Assembly: GCF_900167975.1 (NCBI RefSeq)
Contig: NZ_FUZU01000002.1
Coordinates: 1,185,501 to 1,249,500, forward strand
Length of the DNA stretch: 64,000 bases
Direction of reading: 5' to 3'
Source of the DNA: Ohtaekwangia koreensis
GTDB taxonomy: Bacteria > Bacteroidota > Bacteroidia > Cytophagales > Cyclobacteriaceae
Part shown: piece by piece, positions 8,496-18,700 of the stretch
Position numbering within the stretch: position 1 is the first letter of the stretch
Layout: each line of letters begins with the position of its first letter
Made by a program: the position numbers and the translations under genes
Notes under the pieces: generated by a model
The model's input: only the letters and a program-made list of their open reading frames with translations
Told to the model about the DNA's origin: nothing
The model's database searches: none

Positions 8496-9197
8496 TTATA
8501 CCGCCAGCACGCCATCCTTTAGCACTGGCACCACGGTATATTGATCAGCCGTAAGGCAAAACTGAATGTCTTTGTATATATTTAGTTTGGCTAAGCGCCT
8601 TACGTGGCTGGAGTCTTTGAGGAAATCAACCATGTCGTGTTTCGCTTGATTATATAAATGTTGCGCAGCAACAGGTGCATCACAATCCGGTTGGGTATGT
8701 TCTTTGAGTAGTTCAACGAGCGCTCCTGCAAACAAAGTGTCTTCAAGGTTTACACGGCCTTTCCATCCTGCACAAACCACCAATACATTGTTCGCATCCG
8801 TTAAAAGATAATCTGCAACAGCAGAGAGATTCAGAAACGATCCTATAATAATTTCCTGAGCACCGATTGATTTAGCGATTGCCTGCGTGCCATTCGTAGT
8901 AGTGAAGGCGATCTTCTGTCCTTTTAGTTTTTCATCCATATATTCAAATGGAGAATTGCCAAGGTCGAAGCCTTCCACTTTTTTGCCATCACGTTCGCCT
9001 GCTGTGAAGTATCCTTTGTCTTTAAGTGCAAGGCAATCTTCCATTTTTGCGAAAGGTGTGATGCTTGCTATACCATGCGCAAAAGCGGTAGTCATGCAAG
9101 ATGTTGCACGGAGTATATCCACAACGACAACGGTACGGTCGTGAACAGTATATAAATGCATCAACTCTGGACTGAGGCATACATCGATCGTCTTCAT
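8496..9197 (-). CDS. comB: 2-phosphosulfolactate phosphatase
   Basis: ComB-family phosphatase that removes phosphate from 2-phospho-3-sulfolactate to give 3-sulfolactate. Family motifs seen are the VVVDILRATSCM block, AGERDGKKVEGFDLGNSP, the TTTNGTQA loop and VCAGWKGRVNLEDTLFAGAL. I place the start at 9197 because it gives the standard N-terminus (MKTIDVCLS) and drops a non-conserved 15-residue extension. About 234 residues. ComA and ComC partners are not in the window. In methanogens the pathway makes coenzyme M; in Bacteroidota the product's fate is unclear. Gene order with gcvT upstream on the same strand is probably incidental. Confidence 0.92.
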   Translation of the reverse strand: MKTIDVCLSPELMHLYTVHDRTVVVVDILRATSCMTTAFAHGIASITPFAKMEDCLALKDKGYFTAGERDGKKVEGFDLGNSPFEYMDEKLKGQKIAFTTTNGTQAIAKSIGAQEIIIGSFLNLSAVADYLLTDANNVLVVCAGWKGRVNLEDTLFAGALVELLKEHTQPDCDAPVAAQHLYNQAKHDMVDFLKDSSHVRRLAKLNIYKDIQFCLTADQYTVVPVLKDGVLAV

Positions 9198-9234
9198 AAA
9201 ACTTTGTATTGTAATGGAGGGGAAACCGGTGAAA

Positions 9235-9288
9235 GAACACACAGTATACCTGCAGTATGCGAGAATGCAAGGCAGATATACTGTGTTC
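9235..9288 (-). terminator. Imperfect hairpin between gcvT and comB
   Basis: GAACAC..AGTATA..CTGC at 9235-9253 pairs with GCAGATATACTGTGTTC at 9272-9288, with one mismatch and a two-base bulge. On the minus strand it begins 8 bases after the gcvT stop and is followed by a short T-rich stretch (TTCTTT), so it may end or attenuate gcvT transcription before comB. Confidence 0.5.
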
Positions 9289-9296
9289 TAATGAAA

Positions 9297-10379
9297 CTAT
9301 ATCAAAGGCATTTTACTTACTTCTGCTTTTAAAGCGCGGCCACGGATATCGATAAATATTTCGGAGCCAGGGGTTGCAAGTGAAGGAGTCACGTATCCCA
9401 AGCCAATACCAATGCCCAGTACAGGCGACATCGTTCCTGATGTTACTTTCCCGATAACATTTCCGGCAGCATCTTTAATGCTATAGTCATGGCGCGGTAT
9501 ACCTTTATCGATCATCTTGAAGCCTACTAATTTTTTGCTAACGCCTTCTTCCTTTTGCTTCTTGATAGCAGCGGAGTTTGTAAACTCTTTTGTGAATTTT
9601 GTGATCCAGCCAAGGCCACCTTCAAGTGGAGACGTTGTGTCATCAATATCATTACCATACAGGCAGAATCCCATTTCAAGGCGCAGTGTATCACGCGCAC
9701 CTAAACCAATCGGTTTGATACCTTCTTCTTTGCCAGCTTCAAAAATATCGTTCCATACTTTTTCAGCGTGTTGCTTATTTACATATATCTCGAAGCCGCC
9801 TGCACCGGTATATCCCGTGTTGGAGATCACCACATCTTTTACTCCTGCAAATTCACCAATTGCAAAATGATAATATTTTATAGTGCTAAGATCGACAGCT
9901 GTTAGCTTCTGAAGTACACCGGCAGCTTTAGGACCTTGCACAGCAAACAAACAGATGTCATCGGAAATGTTTTTCATCTCCGCACCTTTCGTATTGAATT
10001 TGCTGATCCAATTCCAGTCTTTCTCAATGTTGCTGGCGTTTACAACAATCAGGTAATCGTTGTCCTTTATTTTATATACGATAAGATCATCAACAATACC
10101 ACCGGTTTCATTTGGCAAGCAAGAATACTGTGCCTGGCCATCTGTTAATTTGGATGCATCGTTGGTTGTAACGCGTTGAATTAGATCAAGCGCTTGCGGA
10201 CCCTTCACCGTAAATTCACCCATGTGCGATACATCGAACACGCCTACGCCCTTGCGTACCGTCATGTGCTCTTCTATATCGGATGAATAACGAACCGGCA
10301 TATTATATCCGGCAAAGGGAACCATCTTGCCTCCCAGTTTTGCATGAAGGTCGTTAAGGGGAATGTACTTTAAATCCAT
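9297..10379 (-). CDS. gcvT: Glycine cleavage system aminomethyltransferase (T protein)
   Basis: Tetrahydrofolate-dependent enzyme that takes the aminomethyl group from lipoylated H protein and makes 5,10-methylene-THF and ammonia. 360 residues, normal length. Recognisable blocks are the N-terminal [29 protein letters not shown], the [12 protein letters not shown] strand, [11 protein letters not shown] with the folate-contacting Arg, and the C-terminal barrel domain with [13 protein letters not shown]. gcvH and gcvP are not adjacent, which is common in Bacteroidota where gcv genes are scattered. Confidence 0.97.
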
Positions 10380-10482
10380 AATGCTCGTTTAGGTGCGCGA
10401 ATGTAGCGCTATCTATAATTCGTTACAAACCGTTATTTGTTAATCATTATCAGTTTATCCAATAACAAAATAACAGCAACAG

Positions 10483-10944
10483 CTAAAGTGATTTTGCCTG
10501 CTCGATTGCGGAGAGCATATCTTCCTTTACCTTTTTTATTCTCTCCATTTCATTCTTCAGATACTCCTGCGTTTTCTCTTCACCTTCGAGCTTCACACTA
10601 TCAAGTTTAGTGTTGAACTCGCGCATCCACACACGCATCGCATCATCAGCAGCATCAAGTTTTACAATTGCACCTTCAATCTCTTTTTTCTTGCCGGCCT
10701 CTGTTCCGGGTGTATCAAGTTTCTTTTGCAGGCTTTCTTTCAGAGTATAGATGTCGCCCATCTTTGGCATCACTTCATCATGTATCTTCATCACTTCAGT
10801 ATATAAAGCATCGTCAGGAGAAGCATTCGCTGAATCATGAGCATGGTGATCATGATCGTGTCCTTCATGATCATGAGACTTCTGTCCACAGGCGCCAAGC
10901 AACAACACCAATGATATTGCCGACAATTTTAATATAGCTTTCAT
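10483..10944 (-). CDS. His-rich lipoprotein with helical body
   Basis: The start at 10944 gives a clean lipoprotein signal: a short basic end, a hydrophobic core and the lipobox LLGAC with Cys19 as the lipidated residue, so the protein is membrane-anchored in the periplasm. Directly after it comes a His/Asp-rich linker (HDHEGHDHDHHAH) that looks able to bind divalent metals. The remaining 105 residues are charged amphipathic helices. Similar Bacteroidota proteins are often called viral A-type inclusion protein, a label without functional meaning. A metal-related role is inference from the histidines alone. Confidence 0.8.
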   Translation of the reverse strand: MKAILKLSAISLVLLLGACGQKSHDHEGHDHDHHAHDSANASPDDALYTEVMKIHDEVMPKMGDIYTLKESLQKKLDTPGTEAGKKKEIEGAIVKLDAADDAMRVWMREFNTKLDSVKLEGEEKTQEYLKNEMERIKKVKEDMLSAIEQAKSL

Positions 10945-10968
10945 AATTTGGATTGATATAGTAGTCTT

Positions 10969-10976
10969 CAAAAGTA
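10969..10976 (-). promoter_or_regulatory. Candidate -7 promoter element for the His-rich lipoprotein
   Basis: On the minus strand the bases read TACTTTTG, a full match to the Bacteroidetes -7 consensus TAnnTTTG, 25 bases before the lipoprotein start. I find no matching -33 TTTG at the normal distance, so confidence is low. Confidence 0.4.
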
Positions 10977-11148
10977 GTGGTAATCATTCTATAATAATCG
11001 TGATCACCTTCACGATTTATCTTTTTGATAGCCTTGGCTCCGTTATCGAGGCGCTATAATCGATGACGAACTAGCAACGCCTGCAACGCTAACTAGCTGA
11101 CTAACAATCATTAGTTCTATTAAATTTTCAAAAAAGATTCAACTGATG

Positions 11149-11181
11149 TTTGGAACTCCCCACAAAATGATTTTATCTTTG
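11149..11181 (+). promoter_or_regulatory. Bacteroidetes-type promoter of the Phe/Tyr operon
   Basis: TTTG at 11149-11152 (-33 element) and TATCTTTG at 11174-11181 (-7 element, consensus TAnnTTTG) are separated by 21 bases, the expected spacing for the Bacteroidetes primary sigma factor. A start site near 11186-11188 would give a leader transcript whose first ORF begins at 11200. Confidence 0.8.
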
Positions 11182-11199
11182 GATCACAACGCGAAAGCA

Positions 11200-11265
11200 A
11201 TGAAAGCTAATAATTCCTTCTTTTACTTTTACTACTACTTTTTTGGACCCCAGACGGGACTCTAA
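11200..11265 (+). CDS. Phe/Tyr leader peptide of the aromatic operon
   Basis: Short ORF of 21 codons plus stop (ATG 11200, TAA 11263-11265). Codons 7-15 (11218-11244) are nine consecutive aromatic codons: Phe, Phe, Tyr, Phe, Tyr, Tyr, Tyr, Phe, Phe. It lies just after a strong promoter and just before a rho-independent terminator and pheA, the layout of a ribosome-mediated attenuator. The mix of five Phe and four Tyr codons suits an operon that makes both amino acids. The peptide itself should have no function beyond reporting ribosome stalling when charged tRNA-Phe or tRNA-Tyr runs short. Confidence 0.88.
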   Translation: MKANNSFFYFYYYFFGPQTGL

Positions 11266-11316
11266 GAGCGGTATGTTGTTAAGAAAGGAATAACAGATAA
11301 ACTCAGAAAAGTCCCG
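11255..11316 (+). promoter_or_regulatory. Predicted antiterminator of the pheA attenuator
   Basis: CGGGACT at 11255-11261, inside the last codons of the leader peptide, can pair with AGTCCCG at 11310-11316, the 5' arm of the terminator. A small hairpin at 11274-11280/11289-11295 (TGTTGTT with AATAACA, one G-U pair) would close the gap between them. A ribosome stalled on the aromatic codons leaves 11255 free and favours this pairing; one that reaches the stop codon covers it and lets the terminator form. This is folding by eye. Confidence 0.65.
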
Positions 11317-11334
11317 GCAAAACCGGGACTTTTT
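11307..11334 (+). terminator. Attenuator terminator before pheA
   Basis: AGTCCCGG (11310-11317), loop CAAAA, CCGGGACT (11323-11330), extended by three A-T pairs and followed by TTTT. A strong GC-rich intrinsic hairpin 22 bases before the pheA start codon and 42 bases after the leader peptide stop. Confidence 0.88.
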
Positions 11335-11355
11335 GCTTATAGGGACTTTTAGAAA

Positions 11356-12198
11356 ATGGCGAAGAAGAAAAAATTAAAGATTGCAATTCAGGGTATCGCT
11401 ACCAGCTTTCACGAAGTGGCGGCTCTTACATATTTCAATGAACCCATTGAAACTGTAGAGTGCCTTTCATTTCATCAACTATGTGAAAGCCTTAAGAATG
11501 GAACCAGCGATTACGCTGTAATGGCGATCGAGAATTCTATAGCAGGAAGCATATTGCCTAACTACTTCCTGTTACAGGATTATCACTTCAATATCATCGG
11601 TGAGCTATACCTTCCGATTCACATGAATCTGCTGGTGTTACCAGGGACTAAACTATCGGATATAAAAACGATTGAGTCGCACCCGATGGCTATACGCCAG
11701 TGCACAGAATTTTTGCATGCTTTAAATGGTGTTGAAATCCGCGAAAGCGATGACACAGCACTTTCTGCCAAGCGTGTAAAAGAACTGAAGTTGAAAAATA
11801 CAGCGGCTATAGCAAATGAGTTTGCAGCCAAGAAATACGGACTGCAGATCCTGGAGAAACGCATCGAAACGCATAAGAAAAACTTTACGCGTTTCCTGGT
11901 ACTGGCAAAACGCAGTAACGGAAAAATAGAAAGCAACAAAGCATCGTTGTGTTTTGAGGTGGCAAATGAAGTGGGGAGCCTTGCAGATGCATTGACAACG
12001 TTTAAGAATAACAGCATCAACTTAACCAAGATCCAATCTATACCGATCATCGGGCGGCCAAGCGAATATTCTATTCATATAGATGTTGAATGGAAAAGAC
12101 GCAAGAGCTACGACACCGCCATGCATGAGATTATGAGACAGGTAAAGAATCTGAATGTGTTGGGAGAGTATAAGAAAGCGAAGGTAGAGTATAAATAA
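11356..12198 (+). CDS. pheA: Prephenate dehydratase
   Basis: Converts prephenate to phenylpyruvate in the last committed step to phenylalanine. 280 residues: a periplasmic-binding-protein-like catalytic region (about 7-185) with the essential Thr-Arg-Phe motif at 178-180 (NFTRF), then an ACT domain (about 197-275) that in the family binds Phe for feedback inhibition. The ACT region keeps NEVGSLADAL and IGRPSEYS, though the usual ESRP is IGRP here. There is no fused chorismate mutase; that domain is in the DAHP synthase gene of the same operon. First structural gene after the Phe/Tyr attenuator. Confidence 0.95.
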   Translation: MAKKKKLKIAIQGIATSFHEVAALTYFNEPIETVECLSFHQLCESLKNGTSDYAVMAIENSIAGSILPNYFLLQDYHFNIIGELYLPIHMNLLVLPGTKLSDIKTIESHPMAIRQCTEFLHALNGVEIRESDDTALSAKRVKELKLKNTAAIANEFAAKKYGLQILEKRIETHKKNFTRFLVLAKRSNGKIESNKASLCFEVANEVGSLADALTTFKNNSINLTKIQSIPIIGRPSEYSIHIDVEWKRRKSYDTAMHEIMRQVKNLNVLGEYKKAKVEYK

Positions 12199-12201
12199 GT
12201 A

Positions 12202-12357
12202 GGGAAAGTCGGGAAGTCCGGAAGACGGAAAAGTCTGAAAGATTGGTTAAGGGAACAGTGCTAAGTATAGGTATATAGATAGTTGAAATATAGGGACAGA
12301 AAAGGGTAAGGACACGAAACAAAAACTTTCCGACTTCCGGACTCCCGACTTTCTGAC
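12202..12357. repeat. Long inverted repeat between pheA and the aminotransferase gene
   Basis: The arm at 12202-12234 (core GTCGGGAAGTCCGGAAG) and the arm at 12325-12357 (core CTTCCGGACTCCCGAC) are near-perfect reverse complements over about 32 bases, enclosing about 90 bases of purine-rich sequence. It fills the only large gap inside the aromatic operon. A related word (GTCAGAAAGTCCGAAAG) occurs at about 3134-3150, so it may belong to a dispersed repeat family. Confidence 0.75.
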
Positions 12358-12383
12358 TTAGATTCATTAAATGCAGAAGAGAA

Positions 12384-13580
12384 ATGATAAAGACAGCGAA
12401 TAGAATTGCCAACGTAGAAGAGTATTACTTCAGCAGAAAACTTGCTGAGGTGAGAGGGCTGGATACACCGGAATTACGCGTGATCAATCTCGGGATTGGT
12501 AGTCCTGATCAGGCGCCATCCTCCAATGCTATAGATGCATTGATCGCTTCCGCGAAAAATCCCGCGAACCATGGCTACCAGAATTACAAAGGTATACCGG
12601 CTTTCAGAAAGGCGATTGCTGATTTTTACCAGACTACATATCAAACTACTATAGATCCTGAAACAATGATCCTTCCCCTGATGGGATCGAAGGAAGGGAT
12701 CATGCATATAGCCATGGCGTTTGTGAACGAAGGTGAAGAAGTGTTGATACCAAACCCGGGTTATCCAACATACTCTTCCGTTGCAAACCTGGTAGGAGCA
12801 AAGCTGAGACCGTACGATTTGAAGGAAGACCTTAACTGGGGCATCGATATAGCAGCATTAAAGAAAAGCGATTTATCAAAAGTAAAGATCATGTGGGTAA
12901 ATTTCCCGCACATGCCTACAGGTCGCGTTGCTTCAAGAGCCGAGTTGAAAGAACTGGTTGATCTTGCACGCGAACATCAGTTCCTTATTGTGAATGATAA
13001 TCCCTATAGTCTGGTGTTGAATGATAACCCGATGAGCATTCTCTCCATAGAAGGCGCAGAAGATGTAGCGCTGGAGTTGAACTCATTGAGTAAATCGCAT
13101 AACATGGCGGGCTGGCGATTGGGTTGGGTAGCTGGTAAGAAAGAACTTATCGAAGCGGTGCTGAAAGTAAAAAGTAATATGGACTCCGGAATGTTTTTGG
13201 GCTTGCAACACGCGGCCACCGAGGCATTGAAGAACGGAAAAGAATGGTTCACTTCCCTCAATAAAGTATATGCCGAGCGCAAAGCTGTAGCACAACAGTT
13301 GTTGGATATACTGGGATGTACGTATTCAAATGATCAATCCGGATTATTTGTATGGGCAAAAGCACCGGCACACATTACAGATGTTGAAAAGTGGATCGAT
13401 GAAATACTATACGGAACAAAAGTATTTATAACGCCAGGTTTCATTTTCGGTGAAGCAGGAAGAAGATATATACGTATTTCACTCTGCTGTACAGTAGAAT
13501 CTCTGAACCAGGCATTGACCAGAGTTGATGCTTTTTTGAAGAAATCGGCCGTGAGTGATCTGTCTACAGCAAAAGCATAG
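12384..13580 (+). CDS. Class I/II PLP aminotransferase, probably aromatic
   Basis: Fold-type I aminotransferase of 398 residues. The PLP lysine is Lys237 in SLSKSHNMAGWR, with the phosphate-binding Arg eight residues later. NFPHMPTG contains the cofactor-contacting Asn173, and the glycine-rich NPGYPTY is at 124-130. The usual DE-x-Y is DNPYS here, a variant seen in the LL-DAP/alanine-type branch. Its place between prephenate dehydratase and prephenate dehydrogenase argues that it transaminates phenylpyruvate and hydroxyphenylpyruvate (or prephenate), but the sequence alone does not fix the substrate. Six bases separate it from tyrA. Confidence 0.9.
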   Translation: MIKTANRIANVEEYYFSRKLAEVRGLDTPELRVINLGIGSPDQAPSSNAIDALIASAKNPANHGYQNYKGIPAFRKAIADFYQTTYQTTIDPETMILPLMGSKEGIMHIAMAFVNEGEEVLIPNPGYPTYSSVANLVGAKLRPYDLKEDLNWGIDIAALKKSDLSKVKIMWVNFPHMPTGRVASRAELKELVDLAREHQFLIVNDNPYSLVLNDNPMSILSIEGAEDVALELNSLSKSHNMAGWRLGWVAGKKELIEAVLKVKSNMDSGMFLGLQHAATEALKNGKEWFTSLNKVYAERKAVAQQLLDILGCTYSNDQSGLFVWAKAPAHITDVEKWIDEILYGTKVFITPGFIFGEAGRRYIRISLCCTVESLNQALTRVDAFLKKSAVSDLSTAKA

Positions 13581-13585
13581 TATAC

Positions 13586-14485
13586 ATGAAAGTTACAGTA
13601 ATAGGTCTCGGATTAATAGGCGGCTCTATCGCCATCGACTTGCGCAAAGCAGGTCTTGCAACGGAGCTTGTGGGGGTTGATTTAAACGCTGAGCACGCAC
13701 GCAAAGCTGTAGAACTTGGATTGGTAGATAAGATTCAGACAGAAGACAAAGCTTTACATCAGGCAGATATAGTGATACTGGCTATACCGGTTAACGCGAT
13801 GTGTCAGTTGTTACCTGCTGTGTTGGATGCTGTGAAGTCCACGGCAGTGGTGATTGATGCTGGTTCTACGAAGAGTTTGATTTGCCGCGCGGTGGCGAAC
13901 CATCCGAAACGCGAACAGCTGGTTGCAGCACACCCTATCGCGGGAACGGAAAACTCCGGACCTGAAGCTGCCTTCAGCGGACTGTTTAAAAACAAGACGA
14001 ACATCATTTGCGAGAAGGAGAAATCGTCCGATCATTCGCTGGAAGTAAGCATGCGTGTATTCAATGCGTTGGGACTGCATACCATTTTCATGGAGGCAGA
14101 AGAACATGATAAGCATGTAGCGTATGTATCACATCTTTCGCACGTGAGCTCTTTCTTATTAGGACAAACCGTATTGGACATAGAGAAGGATGAAAAAAAT
14201 ATATTCGCGTTAGCAGGCAGCGGTTTTGCTTCTACAGTTCGTCTTGCGAAAAGCTCTCCTGAAATGTGGGCCCCTATATTTGAGCAAAACCTCGAGTATC
14301 TGAGCCAGGCGTTGCTGGAATATATCATGCACTTGCAACGCTTCCATTACCACCTGATGAAGCGCGATACAAAGGAACTGAACCGCATTATGTCAAGCGC
14401 CAACGAAATACGAAGAGTACTCGATGGTATCGAACTGAAAACAAAAAGTCAGAGCGAAGAACAATCTGTTGAAAAACAAAAATAA
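13586..14485 (+). CDS. tyrA: Prephenate dehydrogenase
   Basis: NAD(P)-dependent oxidative decarboxylation of prephenate (or arogenate) towards tyrosine. The N-terminus is a textbook Rossmann motif GLGLIGGSIA (7-16) followed by an Asp (VGVDLN), which favours NAD. The helical C-terminal domain has HPIAGTENSG with the catalytic His, and HVAYVSHLSHVSSF. 299 residues; it lacks an ACT domain and a chorismate mutase domain. Third gene of the aromatic operon. Confidence 0.95.
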   Translation: MKVTVIGLGLIGGSIAIDLRKAGLATELVGVDLNAEHARKAVELGLVDKIQTEDKALHQADIVILAIPVNAMCQLLPAVLDAVKSTAVVIDAGSTKSLICRAVANHPKREQLVAAHPIAGTENSGPEAAFSGLFKNKTNIICEKEKSSDHSLEVSMRVFNALGLHTIFMEAEEHDKHVAYVSHLSHVSSFLLGQTVLDIEKDEKNIFALAGSGFASTVRLAKSSPEMWAPIFEQNLEYLSQALLEYIMHLQRFHYHLMKRDTKELNRIMSSANEIRRVLDGIELKTKSQSEEQSVEKQK

Positions 14486-14532
14486 GTATATATATAGTCA
14501 ATTTATAAAAGTCTAACACTGCTCCAAATATT

Positions 14533-15636
14533 ATGAAACACGCTTTAAAACTCGAATCAATCTCTTCCTGGCTGCCAACTGCCAGCAAGCCCGTTATCAT
14601 CAGCGGTCCTTGTAGTGCCGAAACAGAAGAGCAAACAGTAGCTACTGCAAAACAATTAGCAGCTACCGGTAAAGTACACGCATTGCGCGCGGGTATATGG
14701 AAACCGCGTACACGTCCCGGACAATACGAAGGTTCTGGTGAAGAAGGATTGAAATGGCTTGCATTGGCCAAGAAAGAGACAGGCTTACCGATTACAACGG
14801 AGGTGGCCAACGCAGCACACGTAGAAGCTGCATTGAAAGCAGGTGTAGATATACTTTGGATTGGTGCCCGCACAACGGTGAACCCGTTCTCTGTTCAGGA
14901 AGTTGCTGATTCATTGAAAGGTGTAGATATACCGGTAATGGTGAAGAACCCGATCAATCCTGATCTTGAACTTTGGATCGGAGCACTCGAGCGTTTGAAC
15001 AAAGCCGGCATCACGAAGATGGCCGCTATACATCGTGGATTCTCTTCATTTGAAAAAGGTCCGTTCCGTAATGCTCCGATGTGGGATATGGGAATTGAGC
15101 TAAAGACCCGCATTCCTGAATTGGACATCATCTGCGACCCAAGCCACATTGCTGGTAACCGCGAACTTATTGCATTAATCTCTCAAAAAGCACTTGACCT
15201 TGATATGGCTGGTTTGATGATTGAAAGTCATATCAACCCGGATGCAGCGTGGAGTGATGCCAAGCAACAGGTAACACCTGCTGTATTGGGTAAAATTGTA
15301 GAAGGACTTGTTGTTCGTACATCTTCTTCAGACAATAAAACCTTTAAAGACACACTTAGCATTTTGCGTGAACAGATCGACCAGTTGGATGACGAGATCA
15401 TGTCCAAACTTGCTTCACGTATGAAAATCTCTGAAAAGATCGGTCAGTATAAAAGAGATAATAACGTAACGATCCTGCAGGTAAATCGCTGGGAAGAGAT
15501 CATGCAGACCCGCATTACTCTAGGCAAAGCCATGGGCCTGACAGAAGAATTTACGAACGAATTGTTGAAACTTATTCACAATGAATCTATCCAGATTCAA
15601 ACCAAAGTGATGAATAAAGTAGAGGAACGCGTTTAA
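14533..15636 (+). CDS. Bifunctional DAHP synthase / chorismate mutase
   Basis: Two fused enzymes at the entry and branch point of aromatic synthesis. Residues 1-260 are a type I-beta DAHP synthase joining phosphoenolpyruvate and erythrose-4-phosphate: KPVIISGPCSAETEEQ, the KPRTRPGQYEG loop, and CDPSHIAGNR with a metal ligand His. Residues about 270-360 are an AroQ-type helical chorismate mutase (LREQIDQLDDEIMSKLASR, then KIGQYKR). C-terminal mutase fusions like this are usual in Bacteroidota, and binding of prephenate to the mutase part can regulate the synthase. Last gene of the attenuated operon, followed by a terminator. Confidence 0.96.
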   Translation: MKHALKLESISSWLPTASKPVIISGPCSAETEEQTVATAKQLAATGKVHALRAGIWKPRTRPGQYEGSGEEGLKWLALAKKETGLPITTEVANAAHVEAALKAGVDILWIGARTTVNPFSVQEVADSLKGVDIPVMVKNPINPDLELWIGALERLNKAGITKMAAIHRGFSSFEKGPFRNAPMWDMGIELKTRIPELDIICDPSHIAGNRELIALISQKALDLDMAGLMIESHINPDAAWSDAKQQVTPAVLGKIVEGLVVRTSSSDNKTFKDTLSILREQIDQLDDEIMSKLASRMKISEKIGQYKRDNNVTILQVNRWEEIMQTRITLGKAMGLTEEFTNELLKLIHNESIQIQTKVMNKVEERV

Positions 15637-15662
15637 GGTAAATACGGATATACATGTATAGG

Positions 15663-15696
15663 AAGCGGGCAACGAATAGTTACCCGCTTTTTTTTA
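15663..15696 (+). terminator. Rho-independent terminator of the aromatic operon
   Basis: AAGCGGGCAAC at 15663-15673 pairs with GTTACCCGCTT at 15679-15689 (one C/T mismatch position), 5-base loop, then a run of eight or more T. It starts 27 bases after the DAHP synthase stop. Confidence 0.92.
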
Positions 15697-15796
15697 TGAT
15701 AATTTTTTTCTTTTCAATAAAATATTACACCCCGCCCTGTCTTAGCATCTCTTTTTATTATTTTGAACATTAAATCTACCGCTAGAATTTACCTCT

Positions 15797-18700
15797 ATGA
15801 TCCGCTACCTGTTGCTGGCAATGAGCATAGTGCTCACGACTGCCGCTGCTGCTCAAAAAATTCCGTTGATACATTCTGGAGAAGTAATCACGCAAGCCAC
15901 AGCGCTATATGATTCCGGGAAATATGAAGACGCTATAGCGAAATTTCTGACTGTCCCAAAGCGTGATACAAACTATGTATACATGCTTTCGGAACTTGCC
16001 ATGGCGTACAATGCGAACAAGCAATTCGATAAAGCAATAGCAACGTGTGAAGAAGCGCTTGCTGTTCCATCTATATATAAGGCACATTTGCTCCGCTCAC
16101 AAGCGGTGGCACTTGATAAAAGAGGCGATTTCGAGAAATCCGTAGCCTTGTTCAAAAAAGCTATAGCACTATATCCGTTTGATCATTCGCTACAGTATAA
16201 CCTGGGCATCACGTACTATAATCATAAAGATTACGAGAAGGCCATTGATTGCTTTTTTAACGTGTTAGCGATTAATCCATTCCATCCCGGTAGTCATTTG
16301 AATTTAGGGAAGATTGCTGTAGGCCAGGGAAGAAAGACGCATGCTATACTTTCGTTCGGAATGTACCTCGGTATAAACAATGACGACAACTCGGTGCTGG
16401 TATATGCCGACAAAGTATTATCGAACCAGGTAGAAGATGAAGGAACGTTACCCGTTATAGGTTCAAATGGATGTGAAAAACTCGATCAGATCCTTCGTGC
16501 AAAGCTTGCACTCGATAAAAACTTCAAATCAAAAATAGATGTTGACGCAGCGGTTGTAAAACAGTACGAAATGTTCTTTGAACAACTCAGCATCATTAAT
16601 ACTTCTGGTGATGACCGCTGGGTAAATTACTATTTGCCAATCTATAAAACGATCAAGGAGAATAATATCGTTGAGCCCTATATGTTTCATATACTCGCCT
16701 CTGCTAACAATGATGTAGTACGGAAATGGCGCAAGAAGAATGAGAAGTCGCTAAGCACGTTCTACGCAGCTGTAAACGAACAGCTGCGCAACAAACGCGC
16801 TATAGCAGATGGATCGCAGGTTGGCTTTGATAAACCTATACCGGCTTGGTTTGATGATAACTATAAGCTTGATGCATTGGGAGTAGAGCAAGGTGAAAAA
16901 CGAATTGGACGATGGATATACTTTCACAACAACCTGGAGCGGTCGGCAGAAGGGACTTATGACGATAAAGGTGAAAAGATAGGGGTATGGAAATACTATC
17001 TGAATACAAGCGAGTTAAAAACGGTCGAAAATTATGCTACCGGTGAAGTCACAGCATTTTATCCAGACGGTTCCAAGCGACAGCATTTCTTTTTAAAGAA
17101 TGATGTTATTGAAGGTGAGGTAGAGTTATATCACCCTTGTGGTGGCTTGCGTGAAAAACTGATCTATAAAGCCGGTAAGCGAAATGGTAAAGGTGAATCG
17201 TTCTACCCGAACGGGAAAACCGATATGGTATATGAATATACAGACGACAAAGCTACCGGTGTATTTATAGGATATTATTCAAATGGACAGATCTATAACA
17301 AGAGTCCTTATAAAAATGATTTACTGGATGGCACATACGAGGAGTACTATGCCAATGGAAAGCTAAAAACAAAAGGTACCTATATAAATAATAAATCAGA
17401 TGGCGTCTGGAATTATTACTATATCAACGGACGCCTTGAAAAATCGGGAACATTTAAGGCTGGCAATGCGGTTGGTGAGTGGACGTTTTACGATACACAC
17501 GGAAATATATCTGAGAAGCGAAATCTGAATGCGGAAGGAGTATACCGCGGGGACAATACATTTTATAGCGATGGCAAAATAGCTTCCATCCAAACCTATA
17601 AAAATGATCTGCTTGTGAAATTGGTATACCTCAATAAGGATGGAAAAGAGCTCACTAAAGCAGAAAGTGGAAGCGGTACATTCACGGCAAAAACATTTTA
17701 TCCTACCGGACATTTAAATGGCGAAGGCAGCTATAAAAAAGGAAAAGCCGAAGGTGTCTGGAGATACTATCAGCCGGAAGGGAGAAAACTGAGCGAGTAT
17801 ACCTATGTGAATGGGCTTATCCAGGGCGAAGGAACTGAGTACCATAGAAACGGCCAAAAGAAATTCAGCTTCCAGTATAAAGACGGTAACTACCATGGAT
17901 ACTATCAGGAATTTTATCCAAATGGGAAAGTAAAAGAAGAGGGCTGGATGCAAGACGGCCAGCGTCAGCAACAGTGGCTTAGCTATTATGCAGATGGTGT
18001 GTTGGAGTCAGACGCATACTATTTGAATGACGAGTTGACGGGAGAATATTATGAATATAATAATGATGGAAACCTTGGCGCGGTAACTGTATTTGAGGGT
18101 GGTCGTGTGGAGGATATGAAAGTCTATGACCTGAAGGGCAACCTGAAAACAAAGCAGCGTGCTGACGGGAACAAAAAAATCGTTGAGACATTTCACACTA
18201 CGAAAAAATTACAGTCACAATTCGTTTTACTATGTGGTAACTATATAGACAATCAGACGAAGTGGTTCCCGGATGGAAATATTCTCCTCACCTATAACAT
18301 GATGTCGGGTAAACGACATGGTACATATCAATACAAATACATGAATGACCAGCTGGAAATTGATGGACAGTATGTCAACGGTTCGCCTGAAGGTCAGTGG
18401 AAAGGATACTATAGTAACGGACAGCTGGACTATATGGGAAAATATGTACAGGGTAATCATGATAGTACCTGGACCTTCTATTACATGCATGGAAAGATTT
18501 CATCTACCATTTCTTTCCTGAAAGATGAACGTCATGGTATAGCACGCTTTAATTCTCCGGAAGGGATTCCGGTTCTTGAGAAATTATACCATGAAGGTGA
18601 CCTGGTTGCTTTCCGCGCAGCAAATACAAAAAGTGAATTTGGTGAGTGGGTGCCGTTCACAGGAAACGAAGTGATCAAAGCTATACATCCGAATGGAACA

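Follow-up and report, generated by a model that had tools for sequence, protein, structure and literature searches.

How might a bacterium of the Bacteroidota match the expression of its aromatic amino acid operon to the supply of phenylalanine and tyrosine? The question is raised by 64,000 nucleotides of the Ohtaekwangia koreensis genome (contig NZ_FUZU01000002.1, positions 1,185,501 to 1,249,500; hereafter the window, whose own numbering is used throughout), in which a preliminary description had proposed a complete Phe/Tyr attenuator. Inspection of the window sequence located all the parts of that proposal at the positions it gave, on the plus strand. The leader peptide ORF (MKANNSFFYFYYYFFGPQTGL; 21 codons; 11200 to 11265 with its start and stop codons) contains nine consecutive Phe/Tyr control codons (FFYFYYYFF, 11218 to 11244), and pheA and three more aromatic genes follow it, as had been claimed. 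These are pheA itself, for prephenate dehydratase with a weak ACT match (11356 to 12198); a class I/II aminotransferase gene, presumed to encode an aromatic aminotransferase (12384 to 13580); tyrA, whose prephenate dehydrogenase scores above the NCBIfam cutoff (13586 to 14485); and a gene for DAHP synthase fused to chorismate mutase (14533 to 15636). Between pheA and the aminotransferase gene lie 185 bases (12199 to 12383), a gap far wider than the others in the operon. The gene order is retained in 65 of the 66 relatives' loci that have at least 3.7 kb of downstream sequence. We consider it very likely that the locus is a ribosome-mediated transcription attenuator sensing Phe and Tyr, a reading built from sequence on the parts themselves, their conservation, their competing pairings and the paired changes within these.

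Downstream of the control codons, all on the plus strand, two structures compete for one arm. Folding places the intrinsic terminator claimed by the preliminary description at 11307 to 11334, as a hairpin ending in TTTTT, with region D (11307 to 11317) as the 5' arm, common to the antiterminator, and region E (11323 to 11334) as the 3' arm with the U-tract. A simple terminator scan of the window listed none at 11307 to 11334, probably because pairing of the A-tract with the U-tract makes the stem swallow the T-run. The CGGGACT copy noted earlier as overlapping the last leader codons lies at 11255 to 11261; this region B is the 5' arm of the antiterminator, which is extended by pairing of a GAG (11266 to 11268) with a CTC (11302 to 11304). 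A putative protector has as its outer helix region A (11212 to 11223), just before the control codons, paired with region C (11280 to 11292), after B (AATTCCTTCTTT with TAAGAAAGGAATA; -8.7 kcal/mol in the window), and includes a local CCC:GGG hairpin formed by the CCCC immediately before B (11248 to 11251). The window RNA from 11186 to 11355 folds with a z score of -3.3. A third GGGACTTTT past the terminator (11342 to 11350) was omitted from the model; its GGGACT is not kept in the relatives inspected by eye. An ORF with control codons, a terminator and an antiterminator that shares an arm with the terminator, three features of ribosome-mediated attenuators, are all found.

These pairings were examined in an alignment of 74 rows, from which loci L002 and L075 and two exact duplicates were left out. 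Its related sequences are not independent, so that the pairing figures overstate significance; in it, 99.6% of the terminator's cells are paired and 7 of its 11 pairs have changed on both sides. The antiterminator (B:D plus GAG:CTC) pairs in 91.1% of cells (82.9% for GAG:CTC) and has 15 double-change cells versus 4.6 in shuffles; at least as many pairs with changes on both sides are seen in 66 of 500 shuffles, so that this count is unexceptional. When the antiterminator is slid by -1 or -2, the double-change cells number 22 and 18, yet pairing drops to 53% and 43%. For the protector set (A:C plus CCC:GGG), 79.7% of cells pair and 79 double-change cells are found versus 41.7 in shuffles, while two count measures fall below the shuffled mean; the CCC:GGG helix (alignment columns 56 to 58 with 65 to 67) pairs in 95.5% of cells. 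Swapping partners between sequences weakens the mean B:D pairing from -15.98 to -14.64 kcal/mol and the mean A:C pairing from -11.62 to -8.60 kcal/mol, and in both cases none of 5,000 permutations reaches the observed value, figures that relatedness again inflates. RNAalifold alone recovers the terminator and CCC:GGG.

From this arrangement we infer the transcription start, the timing of events and the response to Phe or Tyr starvation as follows. Transcription would begin just downstream of 11181 and the leader would be translated immediately. When charged Phe- and Tyr-tRNAs are ample, the ribosome would pass the run and occupy B while D is being made; with B occupied, D would pair with E and RNA polymerase would stop near 11334. 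When either charged tRNA is scarce, the ribosome would stall within the run; B would then pair with D, and the GAG after B with the CTC before D, and E would stay unpaired. Transcription would proceed into all four genes, from pheA to that for DAHP synthase.

We modeled this sequence of events by masking the RNA for 15 bases to each side of the A-site codon's first base and measuring the frequency with which the seven loop-side bases of D are paired upstream. In partial RNAs reaching the first few bases of E, a mid-run stall gives a mean upstream pairing of D of 0.87 over 78 leaders; for the window, the values are 0.87 at mid-run, 0.10 over B and 0.14 at the stop codon. The 33 short leaders of the window's type behave alike, with an antiterminator value of 0.85 at mid-run versus 0.19 at the stop codon and a lower value at the stop in 33 of 33. 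B stays unmasked in the 45 longer leaders when the ribosome has reached the stop codon; their antiterminator value there is 0.76 (mid-run exceeds stop in 34 of the 45) and falls to 0.18 with the ribosome over B. The window and each of the 33 short leaders fit the expected geometry, with B freed by a mid-run stall and covered when the ribosome has reached the stop codon. Equilibrium folding of the complete window RNA gives the terminator at every ribosome position, and at most 2 of the 78 full-length RNAs exceed 0.5 antiterminator in any state. Folding with masked positions, as suggested in the preliminary description, accordingly gave a divided answer, the full-length RNA showing no switch at equilibrium and the partial transcripts switching. 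Because the full-length RNA folds to the terminator wherever the ribosome stands, the modeled switch would have to be kinetic. In the free leader RNA before E is made, D pairs upstream at a mean of 0.80, unlike in Escherichia coli pheL (0.17), and A:C does not suppress this, so that its role as a protector is putative at most.

Conservation was assessed in 80 loci from one PheA scan of genome contigs, a scan that finds close relatives only; they include Chryseolinea, Chryseosolibacter, Dawidia, Pseudochryseolinea, Parachryseolinea, Chryseotalea and many metagenome-assembled genomes. An aromatic leader ORF (at least 6 aromatic residues in 10, with GTG and TTG starts allowed) precedes pheA in 77 of the 79 relatives with upstream sequence, and a stricter ATG leader (at least 7 in 10) is present in 71 of the 79. 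No aromatic leader was found in L078 and L079, whose PheA proteins are 52% and 48% identical to that of the window; these two and L076, which has no upstream sequence, are omitted from the leader analyses. On both strands of the 80 loci, 104 of 16,395 short ATG ORFs reach the stricter level of 7 aromatic residues in 10, of which 92, counting nested starts, lie at pheA leaders and 12 elsewhere. A terminator hairpin stands before pheA in 78 of 78 leader regions, window included, according to our own scoring. The attenuator reading advanced in the preliminary description is supported by this conservation of the codon run and of the competing arms. Over the 78 leaders, the peptides contain 350 Phe, 259 Tyr and 21 Trp residues; because 21 of them include a Trp codon, the wider family appears to sense aromatic amino acids more generally than Phe and Tyr alone. 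Three relatives (L039, L040 and L057) retain region B despite a frame shift within the aromatic run; all three are metagenome-assembled, however, and a sequencing error is possible. L002, titled uncultured Bacteroides, and L003, titled Chitinophaga, have PheA proteins 100% and 95% identical to that of the window and sit beside Chryseolinea-like relatives, so that their record titles may be mis-assigned.

Ahead of the leader, on the plus strand, lies a Bacteroidota-type promoter, TTTG-N21-TATCTTTG (11149 to 11181), whose TTTG box we take to be the -33 element, TATCTTTG being at -7. A promoter with both consensus elements had been described here and is indeed present, but the pattern by itself is at chance level (2 found in the window versus 1.58 expected); a comparable box is seen by eye at the equivalent position of close relatives. 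The -7 consensus, TAnnTTTG, is named in PMC9723704. Upstream of the promoter, we found an element absent from the preliminary description, namely, a conserved palindrome, CTAAC-N4-(G/A)TTAG (11101 to 11114), a putative transcription factor operator and the single exact match in the window (0.28 expected). With at most one mismatch, CTAAC-N4-GTTAG occurs in 72 of 78 family promoters versus 3 of 1,560 base-shuffled stretches, starting 78 to 113 bases ahead of the leader start. The 923,293 bases of the 80 loci hold 83 such sites, 71 in leader promoters and 12 elsewhere. The palindrome suggests a second layer of control through a DNA-binding protein; that the binder is a transcription factor is our guess. 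Exact CTAACNNNNRTTAG occurs at 9 places in the O. koreensis genome, which include the promoter regions of an amino acid permease gene and of a Thr/Ile leader described below. The count is below that of a reversed-pattern control, and a wide regulon in this genome is not claimed.

Could the palindrome be the main control, with regulation mostly at initiation and attenuation merely residual in O. koreensis? Its frequency in family promoters would favor this, but the terminator and antiterminator are conserved at least equally, and relatives of the same class retain the attenuator mostly without the palindrome (L221, with one mismatch, is an exception); we judge such an arrangement very improbable. 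The recurrence of nonaromatic leader residues (GL, RESVC) might instead point to a functional small protein or to a device for translational coupling to pheA, the hairpin being a constitutive terminator. We give this little credence, since B:D pairing is preserved through paired changes and the RNA element is retained in the three relatives with a frameshifted run. A constitutive terminator directly ahead of the operon would, moreover, merely silence it, and in the window 90 bases part the leader from pheA.

It is equally hard to credit that the hairpins are switched by a factor acting in trans, be it an RNA-binding protein, an uncharged tRNA bound by a T-box or a metabolite bound by a riboswitch, and that the ORF is incidental. 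Competing hairpins are, in general, also used by such systems, but an Rfam search of 9000 to 17000 at E values up to 5 returned no T-box or riboswitch match, and the aromatic run is the most conserved coding feature upstream of pheA. The two Rfam matches that overlap the leader region belong to sRNA families and score far below the gathering thresholds; at the gathering score, no Rfam match was found in the pheA loci of 18 relatives or in the trpE and thrA-like loci of O. koreensis. The Bacteroid-trp RNA motif (RF01692), which to judge by its name belongs to trp genes and is probably an attenuator responding to Trp, has no match in 19 relatives, O. koreensis included, and one in the control, Bacteroides ihuae. 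T-box, riboswitch and Bacteroid-trp readings were rejected for lack of Rfam support. Attenuation by the translating ribosome is the reading that we retain.

Several E. coli leaders offer points of comparison. As in the pheL-pheA region (NC_000913.3), a short ORF rich in codons for the regulated amino acid directly precedes pheA, the antiterminator and terminator share an arm, and the stall profile in the folding model is similar. However, pheL reads Phe only, whereas the leader described here reads Phe and Tyr, and Trp in some relatives; moreover, pheA of E. coli is a single fused gene and tyrA lies on the opposite strand, whereas here the leader precedes both branches and DAHP synthase. On a stall, the antiterminator wins at equilibrium in pheL and the terminator wins in the window leader. 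The latter outcome is shared with thrL, trpL, hisL and leuL, i.e., four of the five E. coli attenuators run with the same code. A strong mid-run antiterminator before E is complete, as seen here, is found in pheL, thrL and hisL, whereas trpL and leuL form one at mid-run only before E begins. Reading two amino acids in one leader has its counterpart in thrL (Thr/Ile), which differs in its amino acids and its operon and for which we claim no sequence relation.

The mechanism is a textbook one, in a group hardly described for attenuation. The 2010 survey in PMC2965389 states that leader peptide systems were known in Proteobacteria and Actinobacteria only, bar one atypical case, and adds systems of Firmicutes. 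For Bacteroidota, other studies list the Bacteroid-trp motif as a cis-regulatory RNA of Bacteroidetes (PMC2864571), mention leader-like small ORFs in Bacteroides thetaiotaomicron (PMC7366714) and describe 5' elements, lacking an Rfam match and recurring in other genera of the Flavobacteriaceae, ahead of genes that include pheA (where the element is structured) and hisG, together with strong clues for leader peptide attenuation upstream of amino acid operons of Flavobacterium psychrophilum (PMC9723704). With a structured pheA 5' element and clues to attenuation already in the latter work, the idea that the locus is unprecedented in the phylum does not hold. The flavobacterial pheA element resembles ours in its gene, its phylum, its conserved structure and its lack of an Rfam hit; leader codons and competing arms are, by contrast, undescribed in the parts of PMC9723704 compared. 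In the open literature, i.e., outside subscription papers, we found no paper describing a Bacteroidota leader with mixed Phe and Tyr codons. Our analysis adds the upstream palindrome, the occurrence of two leaders in series in one family and the presence of leaders for Trp, His and Thr/Ile elsewhere in the O. koreensis genome.

Within the class, the attenuator reaches further than the preliminary description had claimed. A leader with at least 6 aromatic residues in 10 codons within 500 bases, plus a terminator at a score threshold of 17, was found in 4 of 8 genomes examined from the same family, 8 of 73 from the same order (all 8 in family f2, with 0 of 65 in the others), 26 of 39 from the same class and none of 36 from the same phylum, versus 1 of 332 control stretches. 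These genomes represent 81 of 88 pheA hits for the family and order together, 39 of 56 for the class and 36 of 127 for the phylum; the class and phylum stretches were hand-picked over families before the class results, and the remainder are the best-scoring loci per search. The positives fall into nine families (f1, f2, f4, f5, f7, f58, f69, f84 and f104), and two f85 genomes (L255 and L258) were counted as negative despite having 8 to 10 aromatic residues in 10. In five of the eight f2 loci (L157, L169, L182, L189 and L199), two aromatic leader ORFs stand in series before pheA; by eye, a hairpin and T-run follow the first leader in all five and the second in L157, L169, L189 and L199. Judging from their sequence, these serial leaders are possible tandem attenuators.

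Leaders for other amino acids were found in the O. koreensis genome itself. A Trp leader (MKQFNNIAWWWHISRYDM) and a terminator precede trpE (L266, minus strand of the locus), without a match to Rfam Bacteroid-trp, and Trp leaders (at least 2 Trp in ten codons, terminator score of at least 20) occur in 16 of the 20 trpE loci examined, this one included. A His leader (MNNNITSGLHHHHHGNDTMRGTAF) and a terminator precede hisG (L270, minus strand of the locus), and a one-mismatch palindrome lies about 134 bases ahead of that leader. A Thr/Ile-rich leader (MQAIQNIATSSLFISAKSVACISIIAIITITIITG) precedes the aspartokinase gene (L280), followed by no T-run terminator that we could see by eye, and L281 to L285 are similar. 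The palindrome, with one mismatch, precedes the Thr/Ile leader in all six of these loci, at a distance of 80 bases in L280, L281, L282 and L285 and further away in L283 and L284, as measured from starts chosen by script. The family relative L295 has MITTITHITTGTTGAVRGMV followed, by eye, by a hairpin and a T-run; no leader was seen before ilvD of O. koreensis (plus-strand locus L310). On the basis of their codons and, for Trp and His, of the terminator, we regard the Trp, His and Thr/Ile leaders as putative attenuators.

Leader ORFs this short are easily overlooked in annotation. The one described here predicts how a shortage of Phe and Tyr would control aromatic synthesis in these bacteria. 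A broader and more tentative proposal, which we consider possible without favoring it, is that Bacteroidia run an attenuator set like that of E. coli, in which an aromatic leader (Phe/Tyr/Trp) governs the entire Phe-Tyr-DAHP operon next to Trp, His and Thr/Ile leaders, some of the leaders sharing a palindromic operator in one lineage and another family having two complete aromatic attenuators in tandem. If this is true, the set would require close coordination between ribosome and RNA polymerase in a class with few Shine-Dalgarno sites. The mixed leader of nine families, together with the Trp, His and Thr/Ile leaders of one genome, offers a natural assay for whether the two machines cooperate closely in such a group.
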